From an uncultured Pseudomonadota bacterium (GTDB lineage: Bacteria > Myxococcota_A > UBA796 > GCA-2862545): a stretch of 64,000 bases of DNA. Positions 24,778 to 45,866 of the stretch are shown here, piece by piece. The first letter of the stretch is position 1; every line of letters starts with the position of its first letter. The stretch is taken from positions 1 to 64,000 of the forward strand of contig CAIOSP010000048.1 in NCBI GenBank assembly GCA_903861005.1, given 5' to 3'. Below the pieces are notes generated by a model, which made no database searches, was not told where the DNA came from, and saw only the letters and a list, made by a program, of their open reading frames with translations. The position numbers were made by a program, and so were the translations under genes.

Positions 24778-27700
24778 CTAGAGCGGAGGACCGGGCACCA
24801 CCGCTCTGGACCATGAAGGTAGACTACGAATGCCGCGCTGCTGCAATCGGCCTCGTAGCTCAAGCTCTGAAGTCTGGTTCCCGTCAAGGACTGAATCGTA
24901 CAGCAAGACGAGATCGCGATGTGCGTGCATACCGATCGCGTCGTAATTTATTGCGGCTCTTCGGTACGCATTTCTTGCGCCCTCCACGTCGCCATCGACC
25001 CACGCGGCGGCGCCCCGCAAGGCGGCCCCTACGGCCTGCGCCCAGCGGTGCGGCTGGCGCTCGAAGTGGCGCGCGTCGGCGCGGGCGCGGGCCATGGCCT
25101 TTCGGTCACGCCGGGCGGCGCCGACCAGCGCGGCGCCCATGCGGGACTCGATGCGGACGTGCAACGCGGACTGGAGGAACCACGCGTGCGCGCGGAGCGC
25201 CTCGACCGCGGCGGCGGCGGCGTCCAGATCGTTTCGGACCAGCGCGATCGACACCCGAGCGTGCAGCTGCAGGTACTTCGTGCCGAACGGAACGCTGAGG
25301 TCTTCGCCGGGGCGGCGCAGGTCGATCACCTGATCGGCGCGGTCGGGATCATCGTCGACCAGGGCGAGGCACGCGACCAACCCGACGCGGATCTGCTCCT
25401 CCTGGACCCGGTTGCCGTTCGCGATCGCGTTGGACAGCTCGCGGTCGACGAACTCGCGGAGCCCTGCGTAGTCGCCGCGGTAGCGCAGCGTCCAGCCCAG
25501 GTGACGCTCGGCGTGGGCGCGCTCCCACCCTTCGGCCACCATGGACCGCCACGACTCGAGCGCCGAGGTCAGGTGCGCGTGCGCGTCGTCGATCTCACCG
25601 CGGATGAACGCGCCGTAGCCGAGCCCCCAGTGCATGAGCGCCCGCTGCTCGACGTCGTCGGTCTGCGCCAGAGCCGCGAGCGCCCGATCGACGAGCGCGC
25701 GGGTGCTCGAGCTCACCTTCGCGGACGTCAGGCCGTAGGCCAGCTCATGCACCAGCCCCTGCGCCTGCTGGCGCGCGTCGCCCCAGCGGGCGGCCTCGTA
25801 GGCGTGCGACACCTGGAACGGCGCGCCGCGCTCAAAGTCCACGCTGCCGAGCGCGCCCGCAAGCACCCAGCCGACGTCGATGCGCTCCGAGCGTCGGGCG
25901 TCGGGCGTGCCCCGGGGTGCGCCGCGCAGACGCCAGATCGCCGTGACCGCCTGCCACCAGAAGGCCTGCGCCACCGTCTCCACCAGGTTGCGTGACCAAC
26001 GCAGCCCCAGCCGCGACATCATCGGGTCGAGCCGCTCACGGCCCAGGTCGAAGCGGCCCGCGCCGAACGCGATCTCCGCCGCGCGGATGCGGGCGCGGGA
26101 CGCCCGCTCGCCGTTGAGGTGCTCGCTCGCCTCGATCCACGCGCGCGACGCGGCCTCGATCACGCCCGTTCGGGTGACCGCCTCGGCGCGCCGCAGGAAG
26201 GCGTGCGCGGGGTCGGCCGCGTGCTCGCCGACGTAGGCGTAGAAGTGCGCGGCGTCCGCCCAGGCGTACTTGGCGAAGGCCTCGTCGGCGGCATTGCGCG
26301 CGTAGGTGAGCGCCCGGTCGGCACGTCCCGCGGCCAAGTTGTGGTGGAAGAGCACGCTGGGGGGTGCGGCGTCACGGGCCTCAAGCGCGTCGGCGAGGCG
26401 CGCGTGGATGGCCGGGACCTGATCGGCGGCGACGCGCTGCTGCTCCCAGACGCGCCAGCGGTCGTGCGCCGGCTGGAACGCGGTGCGACCCGTGTGCGCG
26501 ACCCGCGCGATCATCCCCCGGCGGCCGAGGTCCTGAAGCGCGGCCGGCGGCACCTTGGCCCCCACCACCGCGTCGAGCGAAGCCAGATCGAGCGGCCCCA
26601 CCGAGAAGGCGAGCGCCTGACTGACCGAACGGGCGACCTCGTCCAGGCGCGCGTGAGCTTGCTCCATGGCGGCGGCCGGGTCGGCCGAGCGCGACGGGTC
26701 CGCGCTGAGCACGGTCATGAGCAAGAACGGGTTGCCTGCCGTCGAGTGGAGCAGCGCGTCCACGCCCGTCGGGTCCAGGTCCCGGTGCAGACGGGCCGCC
26801 CACTCGACCACCGCGTCGGCGCCCAGACCCGAAAGCTCCAGGTCGACCGAGGCGCCGCCCGCGTCCGCCGCCGCCCAGGCCGGGCGCGTGCGCGCGGTGA
26901 GCAGCAGCGTCACCCCGGCGGGGCCGTGCAGCCGCAGCGCCTTGAGGAAGGGCAGCGAGTCTTCGTCGGCCCACTGGGCGTCGTCCAGCCACAGACGGAG
27001 CGGGCCATCCTGCGCCACGCGACCGACCAGCGACACGAAGGCGCGCGCGGCCTCGACCACCGCGCGGTCGGGCTCCACGGTCGCCGGGGCGACGCCGAGC
27101 ACGTCGAGGCGCTGGAAGAGCGGCAGCAACACCGCCACCGCGTCGCGCGTGGCCGCCTCGCGCTCCTGGGCGCGCGACACCTGGCACCAGGCCAGCAGGT
27201 CGTCGATCCACCCGTCGACCGCCGGGTACGGGATGGAGCAGTCCGGGTAGCAGCGGCTGCGCCAGGTCGACCCGGGTCGCGTGCGGCCAACCTCAGTCAG
27301 GAGGGCCTCGACCAGGACGGTCTTGCCGACGCCCGAGGGCCCAAGGACCGTGGCGACCACCAGCCCTTCGGAGGCCGCGGCGTCGGCCTGGACCAGCGCC
27401 GCCAGCTCGTCCGTGCGACCGAGGAACACCCGACGAACCCGGTCGCCCTCGGACAGGCCGCGCTCCGACAGCAGGTCGACGAGCTCGTCGGCGGTGGGCC
27501 GGGCGCACGGCTCGGGCGCCAACATGCGCGCCACGAGCGACGCGAGATTCGGCGGGGCGTCGACGGCCTGCATCGGGGGCGCGTCGCCCATGCGGGTGGC
27601 GAGAAGTGTCTGGTCGGGGTCGCCGTGGAAGGGCGGGTGTCCGTGCAAGATCTCGTAGACGATCGCGCCCAGCGACCAGACGTCTGAGGTGGGGCCGCTG

Positions 27701-28248
27701 GTGGCGCCCTGGAGCAGCTCGGGCGCGAGGTAGCCCTGGGTGCCCGAGCCCCCCTCCAGGTCCTCGCTGCGCGAGCCCATGGAGCGGAAGCGGCCGGACA
27801 CGTCGAAGTCGATCAGCACGACGGTGTCGGGCGCCGTGCAGATCAGGTGCTCCGGCTTGAGGTCGCCGTGGGCGAGGCCGGCGTCATGCAGCGCGAGCAG
27901 CGCGTCGGCGGCCTGGCGCAGCAGCCGGGTCAGCGCGGGCCAGCGCGCGTCGGGCGGGGCGGCGACCATCGCCGCGGAGAGCGTGGGGCCCTCCACCCAG
28001 TCCATGACCAGGCCCATCTGCCCGTCGCGCTCGACCAGCTCGAGCATGCTGACCAGGCCTGGGTGCAGCACCTGCTCGCGCAGGCGGTACTCGCGCCGCA
28101 GGTTGGTCGGGCCGCCCACCACGCCGTCGATCGCAAACTTGAGCGCGACCTGACGGGCGAGCTGGCGGTCCCAGGCGCGGTGGACCACGCCCGAGGCTCC
28201 GCGCCCGGAGACCTCCATGACCTCGAACCGGTCGGCATAGACGGACAA
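24778..28248 (-). CDS. Ser/Thr kinase with AAA-type ATPase and TPR-like region
   Basis: Domains in order: an N-terminal protein kinase (to about 270) with 'GRGASGVVHRAWD', 'VALKF', 'HGDLKPEHLI' (HRD has become HGD), 'DFDVSG' in place of DFG, and 'GYLAPELL'; a P-loop ATPase with Walker A 'GPSGVGKT' and Walker B 'LRLWLDDAQW'; then roughly 550 residues of helical repeats. This is the PknB-AAA-TPR type of large signalling protein common in Myxococcota. The start is uncertain: TTG 28248, with GGGAG 9 bases upstream, begins just before the kinase domain, but the frame is open to 28392. It is followed closely by the lipoxygenase-like gene, probably co-transcribed. Confidence 0.85.
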   Translation of the reverse strand: MSVYADRFEVMEVSGRGASGVVHRAWDRQLARQVALKFAIDGVVGGPTNLRREYRLREQVLHPGLVSMLELVERDGQMGLVMDWVEGPTLSAAMVAAPPDARWPALTRLLRQAADALLALHDAGLAHGDLKPEHLICTAPDTVVLIDFDVSGRFRSMGSRSEDLEGGSGTQGYLAPELLQGATSGPTSDVWSLGAIVYEILHGHPPFHGDPDQTLLATRMGDAPPMQAVDAPPNLASLVARMLAPEPCARPTADELVDLLSERGLSEGDRVRRVFLGRTDELAALVQADAAASEGLVVATVLGPSGVGKTVLVEALLTEVGRTRPGSTWRSRCYPDCSIPYPAVDGWIDDLLAWCQVSRAQEREAATRDAVAVLLPLFQRLDVLGVAPATVEPDRAVVEAARAFVSLVGRVAQDGPLRLWLDDAQWADEDSLPFLKALRLHGPAGVTLLLTARTRPAWAAADAGGASVDLELSGLGADAVVEWAARLHRDLDPTGVDALLHSTAGNPFLLMTVLSADPSRSADPAAAMEQAHARLDEVARSVSQALAFSVGPLDLASLDAVVGAKVPPAALQDLGRRGMIARVAHTGRTAFQPAHDRWRVWEQQRVAADQVPAIHARLADALEARDAAPPSVLFHHNLAAGRADRALTYARNAADEAFAKYAWADAAHFYAYVGEHAADPAHAFLRRAEAVTRTGVIEAASRAWIEASEHLNGERASRARIRAAEIAFGAGRFDLGRERLDPMMSRLGLRWSRNLVETVAQAFWWQAVTAIWRLRGAPRGTPDARRSERIDVGWVLAGALGSVDFERGAPFQVSHAYEAARWGDARQQAQGLVHELAYGLTSAKVSSSTRALVDRALAALAQTDDVEQRALMHWGLGYGAFIRGEIDDAHAHLTSALESWRSMVAEGWERAHAERHLGWTLRYRGDYAGLREFVDRELSNAIANGNRVQEEQIRVGLVACLALVDDDPDRADQVIDLRRPGEDLSVPFGTKYLQLHARVSIALVRNDLDAAAAAVEALRAHAWFLQSALHVRIESRMGAALVGAARRDRKAMARARADARHFERQPHRWAQAVGAALRGAAAWVDGDVEGARNAYRRAAINYDAIGMHAHRDLVLLYDSVLDGNQTSELELRGRLQQRGIRSLPSWSRAVVPGPPL

Positions 28249-28429
28249 GGGCGGTCGCTCCCATAGCCGGTTCCCAAGGCCACTCCGGCCCCCACCACAC
28301 CCCGACCACCGACCCCATATCGGATCAGGCGGGTGGCGCGGGAGGGCGAAGGGGAAGCGGACACCGAATCGTCTCGGAGCTTGCCTCCACACCCCGCCCG
28401 CCCTAGGCTCGCCGGTGCGGAGTCCGCCC

Positions 28430-34802: not shown

Positions 34803-35816
34803 CTACAGGTCCGCGCCGGCCGTGGGGTTGTCGGTGACGTCGCCGCAGTAGCAGCGGGTGCCGCCCGTGCCGGGCTCCGCTTCCCACGAGCAGTCCGCGA
34901 TGTTCTTGCGCTCGTCCTTGCAGAAGGTGTCGAGGTCGCTGGCGCAGAAGGAGGCCTCGAAGTCGCGCGAGCGATCCCAGGACGGGACCTCGTCGCCAAC
35001 CCAGGTGGGCGACGGCAGGTCGGCCTTGGCGGCGCGCTTGCCCTGGTCGCTGCCAGGCTGGATCGACTCACCGGTGATGACACACTCGGCGGCCACGTCG
35101 GAGTCCGCGCCGAACAGGCCGGAGAGCGTGGCCGAGCCGCCGCCGATGCTGCCGCCCGAGCAGGGGCCCATCGCCAGGATCAGGCCGTAGCCGAGCCGGT
35201 CGTCGTCCAACGGGAGCGAGAACGAGTCGAGCACGACGGTGTAGTTCACGCCCTCGATGGTGTTCGAGAGGGTGCAGTACTCGGGCGCGCCGCGGCCCGC
35301 GTGGCCCTCTGCGCCGGGGTTCGTGATGGACTCGGTGTGGCAGTCGTTGAAGCTGACGTACACCGGGTTGCCGAGCTGATCGTTGTAGCGGATCTTGAAG
35401 TCGTCGATGCGCTCGCCGGGGGTGCCCGTGTAGTACGCGGTGTTGCCCGCGCGGACGTCCAGGTCGCCGTCGTCGAAGACGTTGTCCGGCTGCCGGTAGT
35501 TGGGCTGCGGACGCGACGGCGAGATCGACTGGTTCCAGAAGACGGACTCCGGGTCCACCCACACGCAGACCGAGCCGTTCACGCCGTTGAAGTTGAACGT
35601 CAGGCCGCCCACGGTGGCCGCGCCGGTCGGGCCGAGCTCGCCGTAGATGGTCGCGTCGCGCGCCTGCTGGATGTTCTGGATGACGGCCGGCTTGAGCGTG
35701 CCGAGATCCTGCACGCCAGGGACGCCTTCCACGGGGTCGGGGAACAGGAACTGCTGGTTGATGTCGCAGCCGGTGACCGACGCGAACAGCACAGCCCAGA
35801 CAAGACGAGAGGTCAT
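34803..35816 (-). CDS. Lipoprotein of unknown function, third gene of a TonB-receptor operon
   Basis: The 337-residue protein has a signal peptide ending 'ASVTGC', so it is a lipoprotein. ATG 35816 is used because AGGA lies 6 bases ahead. The mature part is beta-rich and acidic, with segments such as 'GLTFNFNGVNGSVCVWV' and 'YTVVLDSFSLPLDDD'. Six cysteines in the last 70 residues ('CASDLDTFC', 'CSWEAEPGTGGTRCYC') suggest a disulfide-bonded tail. It follows another lipoprotein and a TonB-dependent receptor, and may be a surface partner of that receptor. No known family is recognised. Confidence 0.7.
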   Translation of the reverse strand: MTSRLVWAVLFASVTGCDINQQFLFPDPVEGVPGVQDLGTLKPAVIQNIQQARDATIYGELGPTGAATVGGLTFNFNGVNGSVCVWVDPESVFWNQSISPSRPQPNYRQPDNVFDDGDLDVRAGNTAYYTGTPGERIDDFKIRYNDQLGNPVYVSFNDCHTESITNPGAEGHAGRGAPEYCTLSNTIEGVNYTVVLDSFSLPLDDDRLGYGLILAMGPCSGGSIGGGSATLSGLFGADSDVAAECVITGESIQPGSDQGKRAAKADLPSPTWVGDEVPSWDRSRDFEASFCASDLDTFCKDERKNIADCSWEAEPGTGGTRCYCGDVTDNPTAGADL

Positions 35817-35824
35817 GGCGTTCC

Positions 35825-36760
35825 TCACTGGACACTTCCCGGCGCGGCGATGGGCAGGTCGATAACCACGTTGCCGGGCTGCTCGGGGTCATCCCAGGTG
35901 AACGGCTGGGACGTGACCCAGTCGTCGCGCTGGATGTAGAAGGTCGGGTTGTTCAGGATGTCCTTGAACTGGGTGCCCGCGTAGAAGTCCTGGTTGTACT
36001 CGTTCTCGAGGAAGCCGTTGCTGGCGTCGCACGTGGAGTACTTGAAGCTCGCAGGGTCCGGCGAGTCCATGAACGACCACAGCTGGAAGCCCTTGAAGAA
36101 CTCCTGCTGCCAGATGGTAAACGGGGCCTCGTAGTCGCCGTCGGCGTTCTTCACGAAGTCCAGGTCCAGGCCGTCGATGTTGCCGTCGTCGTTGCGGTCT
36201 TCGGTCGCCGTGACGCGCACTTCGGCGTCGGAGGTGACGGACAGCAGCGTGTAGCAGGTCGAGCGGAGGTACTCCCCGTTGGTGACCTCATTGCCGGCCG
36301 CGTCCTTGATCGGCTTGCCGACGGTGTCGCGGTACCAGTCGACGATCCCCTGCCAGTCGACAAAGCGACCGGACACGATCTGGCACTGGAGCGACTCAAG
36401 GCAGGCGAACCGGAAGTCGCCGATGGTCGTGCCGCCGTAGGGCAGCGCGTACTTGTCGGCGAGCTTGGGGGGCGCCGGGTAGACCTCGGCGTCCGTGGTC
36501 ACCGACGGGTACAGGCCAAGGTAGACCGGGCCGATCAGGCGGGGGTCATCCACGGTCTGCGTGGTGAAGGTCGGGGCGCCCGTGCCGTCAAGCACCGGGG
36601 TGCCGTCGTCGTTGAGCACGGCACGAGAGATCTCGCGAGTCGCGGCCTCCTTCGGCACGATGACGGTGCCGGTGAGGTCGTGGATGTTGAGACCTTCGTC
36701 ATAGCAGCCCGACGCGAGCGCGAGGACAAGCACGAAGGGGGCGGGCAAATGCTGGCGCAT
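35825..36760 (-). CDS. Lipoprotein of unknown function, second gene of a TonB-receptor operon
   Basis: The 311-residue protein starts at ATG 36760 with signal peptide 'MRQHLPAPFVLVLALASGC', a clear lipobox. It opens with 'DEGLNIHDLTGTVIVP', a start seen in surface lipoproteins of similar operons. It later holds a calcium-loop-like 'DRNDDGNIDGLDLDF' and an aromatic-rich 'TIWQQEFFKGFQLWSFMD'. It is 11 bases downstream of the TonB-dependent receptor gene and 8 bases upstream of the next lipoprotein gene. Its role is inferred only from this context. Confidence 0.7.
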   Translation of the reverse strand: MRQHLPAPFVLVLALASGCYDEGLNIHDLTGTVIVPKEAATREISRAVLNDDGTPVLDGTGAPTFTTQTVDDPRLIGPVYLGLYPSVTTDAEVYPAPPKLADKYALPYGGTTIGDFRFACLESLQCQIVSGRFVDWQGIVDWYRDTVGKPIKDAAGNEVTNGEYLRSTCYTLLSVTSDAEVRVTATEDRNDDGNIDGLDLDFVKNADGDYEAPFTIWQQEFFKGFQLWSFMDSPDPASFKYSTCDASNGFLENEYNQDFYAGTQFKDILNNPTFYIQRDDWVTSQPFTWDDPEQPGNVVIDLPIAAPGSVQ

Positions 36761-36771
36761 GATGGCTTCCC

Positions 36772-39567
36772 CTAGAACTGGTACTGCAGGCCGAGCTGCA
36801 TGCGGAGAGGACTCTGGCGGGAGACCGCCATGATCCGGTTCTTCGTGTAGAGGATCGAGGAGAGCCCGCTCGGCGCCTGGAAGTTGAACACGTTGGCGAC
36901 CTCGAGGTCGATGTTCAGCTTGCCCTTGCGGACGTCCAGGGCCTGACGCAGGCGGATGCCCACGTCCCACTCGTCGTTGAAGTGGTAGTAGAAGCCGCGG
37001 TTCTCGATGCGCAGGTTGTAGCCGGCGTTCGCGTCCGACCAGTAGGCGCGCTCCAGAGGGACGCCGCTGTCGTAGCTGACGGCCAGACCGATCGACAGGT
37101 CCCAGGGATCCGTCGGGACGTTGTAGTAGGCCTGGGCGCGGACCGAGTGCTCCGAGCCGTTGGCCAGACGCCCGTAGGTGTACTGGGTCTGCGGGTCGTT
37201 GGTGAACGTGCCCTCGAGCGACTCGTTGTTCGTGCCGTTCATGAACGTGTACGAGTACGTGCCCTGGGCGAACCAGCGCTTGGCCTCACGCTTGATCAGC
37301 GAGAAGTCGAAGCGGTAGTAGTTGCGGCGGGCGGCGCGAGGGGTGCGCAAGCGCAGGTAGTTGTTGAGGATGTCGCCGGTGCGGGCGCCGATGACCTGGC
37401 TGCCGTCCTCGTCGTAGATGATGTTCGTCTCGTCGGCGTCGTACAGGTTGCGCGTGAAGCGGCCCTGGAAGTTGAAGCCGATCGACAGGTCCGACACGAT
37501 CTCGCGCTGGAAGATGACGTTGAACTCGTCGACGCCCGGCAGCTTGAGGTTCTTGTTGGCCGTGTTCAGGTTCTCGCGCGGGCTCAGGTCGTACATGAGC
37601 GTGGAGCTGTTGAGGAAGCCACGGCCCTTGTTGTCGTTGAAGAGCTCGCCGAAGAACAGCTTGCTGCCGAAGCCAGCCTCGCTGGTGAACGACGCGAGCG
37701 ACTGCGTGCCCGTCTCGTTGAAGCGACCGTAGCCGCCGGCCAGCTTGGTCTTCTGGTCCCCGAAGGGGTCCCAGGAGACGAACAGGCGCGGGCTGAAGAT
37801 GCTGCCGCGGATGACCGGCTCGCCGATGTCGTTGCGCAGGACGGTGTTGTCGAAGCGCAGGCCGTAGCGGATGGTGAAGTTCGAGACCGGCTTGTACGCG
37901 TCCTGGGCGAAGACCGACCAGGTGGAGCCGATGTCGCGCTCGATGATCGGCGCGGAGGTCTCGAGCCAGTAGTAGTTGGTCAGCGTGTTCGGGTCAGAGC
38001 CGGACTGGTTGATGTCGACGTAGCGCAGGTTGCCCGAGTAGCCCGTGACCGAGTTGTTCACGAACTGGGCGGTCTCCACGCCGAACTTCAGGTCGTGGCT
38101 GCCGCCAACCTTGTCCTTCAGCCCGGTCAGCGAGTACTTGCTGCTGGCCGAGAAGCGCCAGCGGTCGTCGAACACGTACGTGCCCCAGTTGACCGAGTCG
38201 AAGGCGCCGAACAGGCCGATTCGGCCGGGCGTCTCGAAGTCGACGAGGCCTTCCTGCTCCGTGGGCTTGCACTTGTTGCTGTCGCTGTTCTGGTTGTGCG
38301 TGCAGGGCACCGCGTACTGCTCGATCGAGATCTTCTGCAGGCCGATGCGGGTGTCGAGGTTGGAGTTCTCGGTCAGGAACCACTGCCAGCGGACCTGGCC
38401 GACGAAGCCCGACTGGGCCTGACGACCCTGGGACTCCGCCTTCTGGAAGGGGTTGCCCTGGGAAATGTTGTCGATGACCGTGGGGTCAGCCTGGAACAGC
38501 AGGCTCACGCGGTGCGCGTTGTTCGGCTGGATGGTCAGCTTGCCCAGCAGGTAGTTGCCGTCGTAGTCGCGCTTCTGGGGCATGCCCGTGGAGGCGATGA
38601 GCGAGCGGTCGTGCTGGTAGGAGAAGACGAACCAGGCCTTGTCCTGAACCAGCGGACCCGACACCTTGGCGCCGATCTGCAGGGTCTGGAAGGCGGAGTC
38701 GAACTGGGTGGCGGCGAGGTCGTAGCCGTCAGACGTGTAGCGGGCGTCCTTCTTGGGGGACCAGCCGCCGTTCTGGTAGTAGACCGACGTGTCGAACTCG
38801 AGGTTGTTCGTCCCGTTGTCCGTCACGATGTTGATGATGCCGCCGAGGCTGATGCCGTACTCGGCGTCAAAACCACCGAGGAGGACTTCAATCTGCTGGA
38901 TGGCGTCGAAGTTGAAGTTCTGGCCGAAGGTGCCGGTGACCGGGTCGGTGACCGTGGCGCCGTCGAGCAGGAAGGTGTTCTCAGACGTGCCGCCGCCCGC
39001 CATGTTCGGGTTGCCGCCGCTGCCCTTGGACACGCCAGCCGACAGCTGGACCGCGTCCTGGTAGCTGCGACCCGACGGGACGCGCTGCAGGAACTCCTGC
39101 GTCAGGACCTGACCGACCGTGGTGCTCTCCGTGTCCACGATGGGACCGGAGTTGCCCTCGACGATGATGGTCGTGGTGGAGCCTTCCTTGAGCTGCACGT
39201 CGACCGTCACCTGACGGTTGATCTGCACCAGCACGTTCTGGCGCTGCTCGGCCGGGAAGCCTTCAGCGACGACCGTGACCGAGTACGCGCCCGGGAGGAG
39301 GTCCGTGAACTTGTAGAAGCCGTCGGCGTCCGTCGAGCGGACCTGCTGGCCGCCGATCATCTGAGGCGACGCCACGGTGACAGAGGCGTCGGGGTACCCG
39401 ATGCCGTCCGTGTCCGTGACAGTGCCCTGGATGGTCCCGGTGGTCTGCGCGTACGCGGCCGGTCCGAGGAGGACGAAAGTGGCCAGGGCTACGGCGAGAA
39501 AACGCCAGAGCTGGTCCTTCGTGAGTCGGAGAGCGATGGTCAGCACGCTTGCCTTCCGTGAAAGCAT
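36772..39567 (-). CDS. TonB-dependent receptor with N-terminal carboxypeptidase-regulatory-like domain
   Basis: The 931-residue protein starts at ATG 39567 with a signal peptide ending 'LLGPAAYA'. Residues about 40-130 form a CarboxypepD-regulatory-like beta sandwich ('GTIQGTVTDTDGIGYPDASV', 'LLPGAYSVTVVAEGF'). Then come a TonB plug ('GRSYQDAVQLSAGV', 'NTFLLDGATVTDPVTG', 'GGIINIVTDNG') and a large barrel ending 'RMQLGLQYQF' with the terminal Phe of outer-membrane proteins. This layout is that of Oar/SusC-like receptors of Myxococcota and Bacteroidota. The substrate is unknown; two lipoprotein genes follow in the operon. Confidence 0.9.
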   Translation of the reverse strand: MLSRKASVLTIALRLTKDQLWRFLAVALATFVLLGPAAYAQTTGTIQGTVTDTDGIGYPDASVTVASPQMIGGQQVRSTDADGFYKFTDLLPGAYSVTVVAEGFPAEQRQNVLVQINRQVTVDVQLKEGSTTTIIVEGNSGPIVDTESTTVGQVLTQEFLQRVPSGRSYQDAVQLSAGVSKGSGGNPNMAGGGTSENTFLLDGATVTDPVTGTFGQNFNFDAIQQIEVLLGGFDAEYGISLGGIINIVTDNGTNNLEFDTSVYYQNGGWSPKKDARYTSDGYDLAATQFDSAFQTLQIGAKVSGPLVQDKAWFVFSYQHDRSLIASTGMPQKRDYDGNYLLGKLTIQPNNAHRVSLLFQADPTVIDNISQGNPFQKAESQGRQAQSGFVGQVRWQWFLTENSNLDTRIGLQKISIEQYAVPCTHNQNSDSNKCKPTEQEGLVDFETPGRIGLFGAFDSVNWGTYVFDDRWRFSASSKYSLTGLKDKVGGSHDLKFGVETAQFVNNSVTGYSGNLRYVDINQSGSDPNTLTNYYWLETSAPIIERDIGSTWSVFAQDAYKPVSNFTIRYGLRFDNTVLRNDIGEPVIRGSIFSPRLFVSWDPFGDQKTKLAGGYGRFNETGTQSLASFTSEAGFGSKLFFGELFNDNKGRGFLNSSTLMYDLSPRENLNTANKNLKLPGVDEFNVIFQREIVSDLSIGFNFQGRFTRNLYDADETNIIYDEDGSQVIGARTGDILNNYLRLRTPRAARRNYYRFDFSLIKREAKRWFAQGTYSYTFMNGTNNESLEGTFTNDPQTQYTYGRLANGSEHSVRAQAYYNVPTDPWDLSIGLAVSYDSGVPLERAYWSDANAGYNLRIENRGFYYHFNDEWDVGIRLRQALDVRKGKLNIDLEVANVFNFQAPSGLSSILYTKNRIMAVSRQSPLRMQLGLQYQF

Positions 39568-39630
39568 ACGTTCGAGCCCGGTTTTGAGGCTTGAACGCCC
39601 CCGGACGATCACGTCGGGGAAACCAGCGTA

Positions 39631-42474: not shown

Positions 42475-43968
42475 TCAGCGGATCGCGACGATCACCAGCG
42501 TGACGTTGTCCTTGCCGCCGCCCTGGTGGGACGCCCGGACCAGCTCGCGCGCGGCGATGCGGGGGTCGGAGTAGGTCGACAGGATCGACGCCATGTCGGC
42601 GTCCTGGACCTCGCCCCACAGGCCGTCCGTGCAGAGCAGGATGCGGTCGCCGGGCTGCACGTCCACGCGGAACAGGTCGATCTCGACGTCACGCTCGGTG
42701 CCGACGGTGCGCAGCAGTACGTTGGACTGCGGGTGGTTGCGGGCCTCCTCCTTGGTGATTCGACCCTTCTCAACCAGCTTCTGCACAAAGCTGTGGTCGA
42801 CCGAGATCTGGTGGAGGGTGCGGTCGCGGAACAGGTAGGCGCGGCTGTCGCCCACGTTGGCCACGAAGGCCTGACGGCTGTTGTGCAGGAGCAGGGCGAC
42901 GAGCGTGGTGCCCATGTCGTTGCCCTTGCGGTCCGCGTCAGCCTTGATGGTGTTGTTGGCGGCCTGGAAGGCCTCGTTGAGCGTGCCCTCGATGGCGTCC
43001 AGGCCCTTGGAGAGCAGGTCGGACCGGTCACGGGCGATGCGGCACATCGTCTCGACCGCCAGCGCGGACGCGACCTCACCGCCGTCGTGGCCGCCCATGC
43101 CGTCGGCCACCACGTACAGCTCGGCCTTGCGGTCGAGCGCGGTCCAACCCCACGAGTCTTCGTTGAGCTGACGGGCCAGACCCACGTCGGTCATGGCGCC
43201 CATGGTGGGCGGGAAGGCGAGCGCCGCGTAGGCGTCGAAGCGGGTCTCGATGGCCCGACCCATGTCGCGGGGTGAAGGGAAGTCCCCGCTCACCGCGAGG
43301 TCCAGGAAGTCGACCAGCGGCAGGGCGCGGACGTGGCAGTAGCGCCGCATGAGCAGCGCCACCTCGCGCAGCACCGGGGCCAACGCCGCCGGGGTCAACG
43401 GATCCGCCTGCACCGAGTCGATGTCGAGGTCGTACAGGCGGATCGAACCGTCCGGCGACAGCAGGATGTTCGACCGCTTGACCGGCCCAGTCAAGATGCC
43501 GTTCTGGGCCAGGAAGGCCAGCGCGCCCACCACCCGCTGGGCGATGTGCAAGATGCGCTGGTTCGACAAGGGCGCGGCCTCGTCCACCATCAGGCCCTCG
43601 CCGCCGTAGGGGACGACAGACAGGAGCTGATCGTCCAGGCGGACCCAGTCCACCGGCTTGGCCAGACCCGGGTGATCCAGGCGGCGCGCGGCAAAGGTCT
43701 GGAAGGCCTCGAACCGGTCGACCTCCCAGCGGGCCGACATCAGGTAGCGCCTGGGCGTGAGCGCCGCGCCGCACTTGTGGCAGATGCGCGCCGTACGGGG
43801 GCTGCCCGGGAATGCGCAGGTTGCGCAACGACGCGTGTCCCTGTCGGGGCGATCGTCGTTGACCAGGTAGAACATCCGACCTTCCGCAAGACGGACCAAG
43901 CCCTCCACGGTGTAGTGGTCGCCTACATAGGTTCCTGGCGGAAAATGCGAGGGTCGGACTTCGTTCAT
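42475..43968 (-). CDS. PP2C-type phosphatase fused to a zinc-ribbon-containing pseudokinase
   Basis: Residues 255-497 are a PP2C Ser/Thr phosphatase with 'DVGLARQLNEDSWG', 'ADGMGGHDGGEVAS', 'VGDSRAYLFR', 'LLCTDGLWGEV' and 'GGKDNVTLVIV'; the metal-binding aspartates are present. Residues about 15-245 have a protein-kinase outline, but the catalytic loop reads 'ILTGPVKRSNILLS' instead of HRDLKxxN and the DFG position reads 'YDLDID', so it should be inactive. A four-cysteine zinc ribbon (C48, C51, C63, C66) is inserted in the N-lobe. It probably senses a ligand or binds kinases and dephosphorylates partners in the cytoplasm. Confidence 0.85.
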   Translation of the reverse strand: MNEVRPSHFPPGTYVGDHYTVEGLVRLAEGRMFYLVNDDRPDRDTRRCATCAFPGSPRTARICHKCGAALTPRRYLMSARWEVDRFEAFQTFAARRLDHPGLAKPVDWVRLDDQLLSVVPYGGEGLMVDEAAPLSNQRILHIAQRVVGALAFLAQNGILTGPVKRSNILLSPDGSIRLYDLDIDSVQADPLTPAALAPVLREVALLMRRYCHVRALPLVDFLDLAVSGDFPSPRDMGRAIETRFDAYAALAFPPTMGAMTDVGLARQLNEDSWGWTALDRKAELYVVADGMGGHDGGEVASALAVETMCRIARDRSDLLSKGLDAIEGTLNEAFQAANNTIKADADRKGNDMGTTLVALLLHNSRQAFVANVGDSRAYLFRDRTLHQISVDHSFVQKLVEKGRITKEEARNHPQSNVLLRTVGTERDVEIDLFRVDVQPGDRILLCTDGLWGEVQDADMASILSTYSDPRIAARELVRASHQGGGKDNVTLVIVAIR

Positions 43969-44168: not shown

Positions 44169-45866
44169 ATGTCCTACCGTCGAACGCTCGTGTGGTCGCT
44201 GACCGCCCTCGCCCTGGTCGGCTGCACCAACGGCCCCGGGTCTGACAAGGACACCGATGCCGCCGACACCGACGTGACCGAAACCGACCCCGACGTGATC
44301 GTGGACACCGACGACACCGACATCGCCGTCGACACCGAGGACACCGACGCCGACACCGACGTGGCGGACACCGACGTGGTCGACACCGACACCGGCGTGG
44401 CCGTCGCCACCGACACCACCATCCACGTGATCCGGCAGGGGACCGGCGGGTTCGGCTTCGGCGACCTGCTCCACATCAACGCCGTCACCGTGGTCGAGGT
44501 CCGCTCCGGCGCCAACGGCCCCCGCGGCTTCACCACACAGGAGGCCGGCACGGACAACGCCGCCCTGTGGGTTGACGTCGCCGCGCCCTACATCCTGCCC
44601 GCTGAAGGCGTCAGCGTCGGCGTGGTCGGCGTGTACCGCGAGCTTGGCTCGGGGCCGACCGGCTCGGGCACCCAGACTCAGCTCCAGATCAGCGGCGCGC
44701 TGCCGGGCACGGAGTGGATCCAGCTCGGCCCGTCCACCCGCCCGACCCCGGTGCTCCTGACCCCCACCGACTTCCACGCCAACCCCGAGCCCTACGAGAG
44801 CATGCGCGTGGTGCTCAGCGACTCGCCGCGCCTGTTCGTGTCGGACGGCCCATTCAGCGACGACTCGTTCGTGCTGACCCCGGACGCCGCCCTGTTCGAC
44901 ATCAGCGTGCTGCCGCTGTTCTACAACCTCCACGGGAGCCCCCCCGGCGCCCTGCCCAACCTGGGCGTCGGCGACTCGTTCAGCGCCATGGCCGGCACCG
45001 TCTGGTACGACAACAACGGCTACGCGCTCGCGCCCACGGCCCTCGCCGACGGCCTGACCTACGTGGCCTACGTCCCGCCCACCGACACCGACGTCGTCGT
45101 CGACACCGACGTGATCCCCGGCGACACCGACACCGACACGATCATCACTCCGCCCGACACGTCCGTGGACACCGACGTCGGCCCCCTGATCGCGGACGTC
45201 GAGAAGCTGCGCGCCGGCATCTACTTCGTCGGCACCATCGGCATGCCGAACTACCTGACCTTCTCCGGCGGCGTGGTCACCGCGGTGCGCTACCGCAGCA
45301 CCCCGCCCGCCACCAACGCCGTGGCCTTGCAGTGGTCGACGTTGAACGGCGACAAGGGCGGCCTCTACGTCTGGCTCAGCAACGCCCAGACGCTGCCCGC
45401 CATCGGCGACGTGATCGGCTTCACCGGCAACTACGTGGAGGACCCCACCGGCGGGTCTGTCCCGAACGGCACGCTGGCCACCATCCGCATTGAGCCGAGC
45501 AACGCGAACGCGAACTGGGCGGTCACCGGGACGGCCACCGTGCCGACGCCGGTCGACCTGACCATCGGGGACCTGCTGCTCGCCACCACCGCCGAGCCCT
45601 ACGAGTCCATGCTGGTGCGCATCACCGACCCGGCTGGCCTCAACGTCACCACCAACCCCAACTCCAACCACGAGTTCCGCGTGCAGGTGGGCGGCGCGGG
45701 CGCCGAGATCATCGTCGACGACCACTACTTCGACCTGACCGGCGTCCACGGCGTCAACATCAACGACACCATGACGTCGCTGACCGGCGTCGTGCACTTT
45801 GAGAGCGGCGCCTACAAGCTCGGCCCCACCACCGCGTCCGACGCGCCGGGCTGGGTCGACAACTAG
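44169..45866 (+). CDS. DTD-rich lipoprotein with two OB-fold-like repeats
   Basis: The 565-residue lipoprotein has the signal peptide 'LTALALVGC' and then about 60 residues dominated by DTD units. Two related domains of about 200 residues follow, separated by another DTD linker near 310-335. Each repeat holds 'YESMRVVLSD' or 'YESMLVRITD' and ends with a hydrophobic strand and 'YALAPTALAD' or 'YKLGPTTASD'. This pattern resembles the OB-fold-like modules of secreted nucleases such as YhcR and ExeM, but no nuclease domain is present. It diverges from the PP2C gene across 200 bases in which no clear promoter is seen. Confidence 0.75.
   Translation: MSYRRTLVWSLTALALVGCTNGPGSDKDTDAADTDVTETDPDVIVDTDDTDIAVDTEDTDADTDVADTDVVDTDTGVAVATDTTIHVIRQGTGGFGFGDLLHINAVTVVEVRSGANGPRGFTTQEAGTDNAALWVDVAAPYILPAEGVSVGVVGVYRELGSGPTGSGTQTQLQISGALPGTEWIQLGPSTRPTPVLLTPTDFHANPEPYESMRVVLSDSPRLFVSDGPFSDDSFVLTPDAALFDISVLPLFYNLHGSPPGALPNLGVGDSFSAMAGTVWYDNNGYALAPTALADGLTYVAYVPPTDTDVVVDTDVIPGDTDTDTIITPPDTSVDTDVGPLIADVEKLRAGIYFVGTIGMPNYLTFSGGVVTAVRYRSTPPATNAVALQWSTLNGDKGGLYVWLSNAQTLPAIGDVIGFTGNYVEDPTGGSVPNGTLATIRIEPSNANANWAVTGTATVPTPVDLTIGDLLLATTAEPYESMLVRITDPAGLNVTTNPNSNHEFRVQVGGAGAEIIVDDHYFDLTGVHGVNINDTMTSLTGVVHFESGAYKLGPTTASDAPGWVDN

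Follow-up and report, generated by a model that had tools for sequence, protein, structure and literature searches.

How PP2C phosphatases choose among dozens of bacterial kinases and substrates is largely open. In the Stp1/PstP/PrpC type (NF033484; structures include tPphA, 2y09, and PstP, 1txo), the closest solved relatives of the protein described here consist of the PP2C catalytic domain and have no pseudokinase. In the serine/threonine phosphatases of the PRK14559 type (NF011149), the PP2C domain forms the C-terminal end of a longer chain whose N-terminus has zinc ribbons. A four-Cys ribbon also adjoins a Hanks kinase domain in the cyanobacterial 4-Cys-prefix kinases (NF045510), where it precedes the kinase, in agreement with the name of the model. 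Fusions of a kinase and a PP2C domain in one chain have been reported in Pseudomonas; in these proteins the PP2C domain is N-terminal and its partner is described as a kinase (PMC1262709). A 2025 survey annotates PP2C proteins with zf-ribbon, DZR, and Pkinase domains, and the portion of that survey considered here describes neither a pseudokinase nor a ribbon inside one (PMC12088040).

Few bacterial pseudokinases have been described. A 2025 review recognizes seven families (ActPs1-3, GLW, CP1, DYD, and DLHK), all with a Hanks fold that has lost motifs, and a term search of its text returned no PP2C partner and no zinc (PMC12599244). In the DYD family, the β3 Lys is replaced by an Arg that forms a pair with the final Asp of the motif, an acidic residue two positions after the DFG Asp, POMK uses DLD, and DLHK/ULK4 have cleft arginines with proposed ATP binding. 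DYD, POMK, and DLHK are considered possible unusual ATP binders, and ActPs1 members often have no helix G (PMC12599244).

Here we describe a gene in a 64,000-nucleotide stretch of DNA (the window) whose product is a soluble Stp1/PstP-type PP2C with a dedicated pseudokinase as its N-terminal half. In a search of openly licensed papers, we found no published description of a fusion of this kind. The pseudokinase would add a family to the few that are known from bacteria.

A PP2C phosphatase with an N-terminal extension

The 497-amino acid ORF lies where the preliminary description had placed it (42475..43968, minus strand) and begins with ATG. Its orthologues start at the same Met or an adjoining one and have the sequence RPxHFPPGT in common at their N-termini, and the start codon is therefore right. 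Pfam, NCBIfam, structure comparison, and alignment all assign residues ~256-497 (42478..43203, minus strand) to a PP2C domain of the PPM, Stp1 type. The Pfam models PP2C_2 and PP2C match at 5.5e-21 and 4.3e-16, and the NCBIfam model for Stp1 (NF033484) scores 250.1 bits against a cut-off of 230; all 52 homologues in our alignment also match this model. The closest solved PP2C relatives are 39% identical with a Z of 35 over 233 residues, and the window protein has the catalytic domain, fold, and metal ligands in common with the Stp1/PstP/PrpC type. The metal ligands noted in the preliminary description are indeed all present, as D271, D289, G290, D448, and D487, and are conserved in 51-52 of the 52 homologues, the exception being a paralogue discussed below. 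The domain is likely to be an active Mg/Mn-dependent phosphatase.

As in PRK14559, the PP2C domain forms the C-terminal part of a larger protein, but the window protein scores 113.9 bits against the cut-off of 374 for NF011149, with the PP2C part alone matching. Of 14 control genomes, one had a match over the cut-off of this model. We suspect that the middle region of PRK14559 is a cryptic kinase-like domain, and the two proteins may have an N-terminal fold in common. Searched with a fragment of approximate cyanobacterial PRK14559 sequence, plasmids gave no match and viruses a single spurious locus.

The N-terminal half is predicted to adopt a kinase fold

In the N-terminal half, Pfam gave only a weak, sub-cutoff Pkinase match (1.5e-5, residues 95-183), and profile methods were firm. 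An hmmsearch profile built from 25 homologous N-terminal domains matched protein kinases of the PDB at E 6.5e-8, and a profile-profile comparison with hhalign aligned residues 11-189 to nine Hanks kinases of related genomes with E 6.7e-15 and a probability of 98.4. The sole large gap of the kinases in the latter alignment falls inside residues 50-73, the site of the zinc ribbon. AlphaFold2 run on the single sequence reached a pLDDT of 37; this model was superseded by one computed from an alignment of 52 homologues, which has a mean pLDDT of 94.3, a pTM of 0.91, and kinase topology over residues 19-248 (43225..43914, minus strand).

In this model, strands β1 and β2 (residues 19-28 and 31-37) are followed by the ribbon, β3 (74-80), helix αC (83-94), β4 and β5 (107-111 and 114-120), αE (136-155), β6-9 (158-160, 168-170, 176-178, and 183-186), and three helices (193-208, 216-226, and 233-248). 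The activation loop, the APE motif, and αG are absent from the predicted secondary structure, and the predicted order of elements corresponds to a kinase whose C-lobe is shortened. When the whole model was compared with viral predictions using Foldseek, many Ser/Thr kinases appeared below the PP2C matches, so that AlphaFold2, hhalign, and these viral matches all point to a protein kinase fold. Foldseek and VIA-align searches of the whole model against structures returned PP2C chains alone among the matches listed, which says nothing against the kinase fold because the PP2C domain fills the list. A kinase-like fold had been anticipated for residues 70-245; the fold itself is predicted, but its onset is near residue 19 rather than 70.

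Kinase motifs that are lost and retained

Motif conservation was counted in the 52-homologue alignment, and the register was taken from the hhalign alignment to the nine kinases. In the β1/β2 hairpin (residues 19-37; 43858..43914, minus strand), the glycine loop is degenerate and reads R-x-[A/S]-E-G-R, with R26 and R31 at the Gly1 and Gly3 positions of GxGxxG in all 52 homologues. Strand β3 lacks a Lys and instead has conserved arginines, R74 and R80 (the latter in 50 of 52), although the exact register is uncertain. At the catalytic loop (TGPVKRSN, residues 160-167; 43468..43491, minus strand), TGP takes the place of HRD, and across the homologues neither Asp nor any other residue is conserved at the position of the catalytic base, whereas the loop Asn (Asn167) is kept in 44 of 52. 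The preliminary description had both HRD and DFG lost. This is correct for HRD, but the metal-binding DFG Asp (D180) is found in 52/52 homologues and only the Phe and Gly have changed, giving D-[L/P]-[D/E] in the family and D-L-D in the window protein (residues 180-182; 43423..43431, minus strand). Other conserved positions are E124 (49/52), D/E182 (48/52), and an invariant P133, and 33 of the 52 homologues have a proline near the usual hinge hydrogen-bond position.

Loss of at least one of the VAIK Lys, the HRD Asp, and the DFG Asp marks a pseudokinase, and here the HRD Asp and the β3 Lys are gone. The domain probably cannot transfer phosphate. It resembles the seven reviewed families in being a Hanks fold with lost motifs, but differs from them in losing the HRD Asp, keeping the DFG Asp, and containing an inserted ribbon (PMC12599244). 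Like DYD it has Arg and no Lys in β3, within the uncertainty of the register noted above, and an acidic residue two positions after the DFG Asp, but D-[L/P]-[D/E] stands in place of D-Y-D. As is often the case in ActPs1, αG is absent from the model. DLHK retains the HRD Asp and has a degraded DFG, the reverse of what is seen here.

A zinc ribbon between strands β2 and β3

The four cysteines noted in the preliminary description are arranged as C48-x2-C51-x11-C63-x2-C66 in a segment of residues 41-70 (43759..43848, minus strand) that alignment, AlphaFold2, and hhalign place exactly between β2 and β3 as a true insertion. They form two CxxC knuckles, which presumably bind zinc, and are present in all of the 51 homologues (out of 52) that have the segment; Pfam ribbon matches stay below cut-off. 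In the cyanobacterial 4-Cys-prefix kinases, the ribbon precedes the kinase rather than interrupting it, and the corresponding model (4Cys_prefix_kin) scores 11.7 bits against 24 at the N-terminus of the window protein.

The whole ribbon is absent from both sampled genomes of one genus (g12), in which the rest of the pseudokinase is kept. In one of these (L025:1354-2790, genome G015) the ribbon is deleted and a short linker takes its place; the flanking strands are kept and the PP2C domain is intact. In the other (L026:3-551, genome G016) a Gly/Ala-rich linker replaces the ribbon, and the contig ends before the PP2C domain. The fold thus tolerates loss of the inserted ribbon, a point against zinc as the general switch. 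Four-Cys ribbons are usually structural, and we consider that this one probably stabilizes the domain or adds surface. Taken with the domain and profile searches, the AlphaFold2 model bears out the proposed chain of a pseudokinase with an inserted ribbon followed by an intact PP2C domain.

Distribution and paralogues

Profile searches detected the architecture in 60 of 63 genomes and in all 34 sampled genera of the order, and in one further genome of the class (G063), which has two copies. Among 379 genomes drawn from the phylum no other full-length match was found, the weak remaining matches covering the ordinary kinase core alone, and searches of plasmids and phages returned no relative of the whole N-terminal domain. 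Between the window genome and a congener, the N-terminal domain has dN 0.0036 and dS 0.145 (dN/dS ~0.025) and the C-terminal domain dN 0.0018 and dS 0.092 (dN/dS ~0.020); hence both halves are under strong purifying selection. The order-wide conservation, the predicted fold, the profile homology, and the invariant substitutions together support the earlier proposal that an inactive kinase fold has been joined to the opposing phosphatase.

Some genomes of the window's family contain a second, more divergent paralogue (~35% identity). A paralogue (L033:184-1605, genome G008), the ligand exception mentioned above, keeps the pseudokinase and has lost the PP2C active-site motifs, such that both halves look dead. 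Retention of the pseudokinase next to a degenerate PP2C domain suggests that it has worth apart from phosphatase activity.

In genome G063, one copy (L089) is a pseudokinase-PP2C fusion and the other is a 1293-amino acid protein (L130:1721-5602, plus strand) composed of an N-terminal kinase, a long acidic linker, and a C-terminal ribbon-pseudokinase, with no PP2C domain. Its kinase matches Pkinase at E 7e-28 and by eye retains AVK, the HGD Asp, DLG, and APE; its ribbon-pseudokinase was matched at E 1e-23 before being included in any profile. The modules of L089 and L130 are 22% identical. The observation, from a single genome, is a lead that the ribbon-pseudokinase is a portable module for targeting or sensing that can be attached to more than one enzyme.

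A possible role in steering the phosphatase

We favor, with a probability of roughly 60%, a role for the pseudokinase as a non-catalytic module that steers the PP2C domain by recruitment or sensing. The N-terminal half would bring the phosphatase to a kinase, a kinase complex, or a phosphoprotein, and ligand binding in the remodelled cleft may modulate that recruitment. A selectivity module would be sensible because the window genome encodes ~37 kinases that pass the Pkinase cut-off, against only ~7 PP2C proteins; such a genome has joined one phosphatase permanently to a presumably dead kinase. If this domain recruits or senses, it would offer a direct and testable answer to the question of PP2C selectivity. 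The occurrence of a kinase-fused copy beside the PP2C form in G063 is as expected of a targeting module. More tentatively, the domain may represent an unrecognized pseudokinase family, defined by the β2-β3 ribbon and R-x-[A/S]-E-G-R, that acts as a portable adaptor on a phosphatase and, in one lineage, on a kinase, with both enzymes addressable to the same target or ligand.

A ligand-gated switch, in which a nucleotide or other anion in an arginine-rich cleft causes a conformational change that turns the PP2C domain of the same chain on or off, is a possible but less probable reading. By homology, R26, R31, R80, E124, D180, and D/E182 would line the cleft, and they recall the arginine and acidic ATP-site features of DYD, POMK (DLD), and DLHK/ULK4 (PMC12599244); by this analogy with unusual ATP binders the pseudokinase may bind nucleotide. 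The same charged residues may, however, merely pair with one another and close the cleft, and the proline near the hinge position also speaks against a bound nucleotide or other ligand as the trigger. A phosphatase-specific switch leaves the module on a kinase unexplained, and the presence of this module on a separate kinase makes docking at least as likely as ligand switching. Both the kinase-fused form and the paralogue with a degenerate PP2C domain tilt the balance toward recruitment. On the other side, the pTM of 0.91 would suit a compact, rigid two-domain unit and with it intramolecular allostery, the kinase-fused form is known from one genome, and no kinase gene is linked to the fusion gene.

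The suggestion that zinc controls the switch is not favored. Single exposed zinc ribbons are able to respond to redox state or zinc, and the four cysteines are conserved wherever the ribbon exists, which would fit control of the phosphatase by metal binding or cysteine oxidation; strict CxxC...CxxC conservation is, however, typical of structural zinc, and both g12 genomes keep the pseudokinase without the ribbon, one of them with an intact PP2C domain as well. We regard such a switch as improbable. Least probable of all is that the protein is a relic of a former kinase-phosphatase fusion whose dead kinase now serves as a passive folding partner. Kinase-PP2C fusions do exist in Pseudomonas (PMC1262709), but R26, R31, and P133 are invariant non-kinase residues in the 52 homologues, and together with the order-wide conservation and a dN/dS of ~0.025 they imply a selected function. 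Recruitment or sensing by the pseudokinase remains our preferred reading.

Genomic neighborhood

Neighborhoods were analyzed with codon-position scoring of ORFs. The gene is divergent from an adjoining tgt in most sampled families except that of the window, where what follows it is often a sulfatase and a TonB-receptor/lipoprotein cluster. No conserved kinase gene adjoins the fusion gene, and its neighbors (tgt, the TonB-receptor cluster, and the sulfatase) vary by family. In the window, the cluster (34806-39612, minus strand) encodes a TonB-type outer-membrane receptor, which contains a carboxypeptidase-regulatory domain, together with two proteins that match no Pfam model; roughly half of the sampled genomes conserve this cluster near the fusion gene. 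Divergent from the fusion gene (44169-45866, plus strand) is a gene for a putative lipoprotein of 565 amino acids that has an Asp/Thr-rich region of DTD repeats and no Pfam match. The gene after L130:1721-5602 encodes a predicted retropepsin-like aspartyl protease. Elsewhere in the window (26500-28290, minus strand), one long ORF combines a kinase domain with a following AAA_16 ATPase domain, an arrangement that recalls kinase-ATPase (COG3899-type) signalling proteins.
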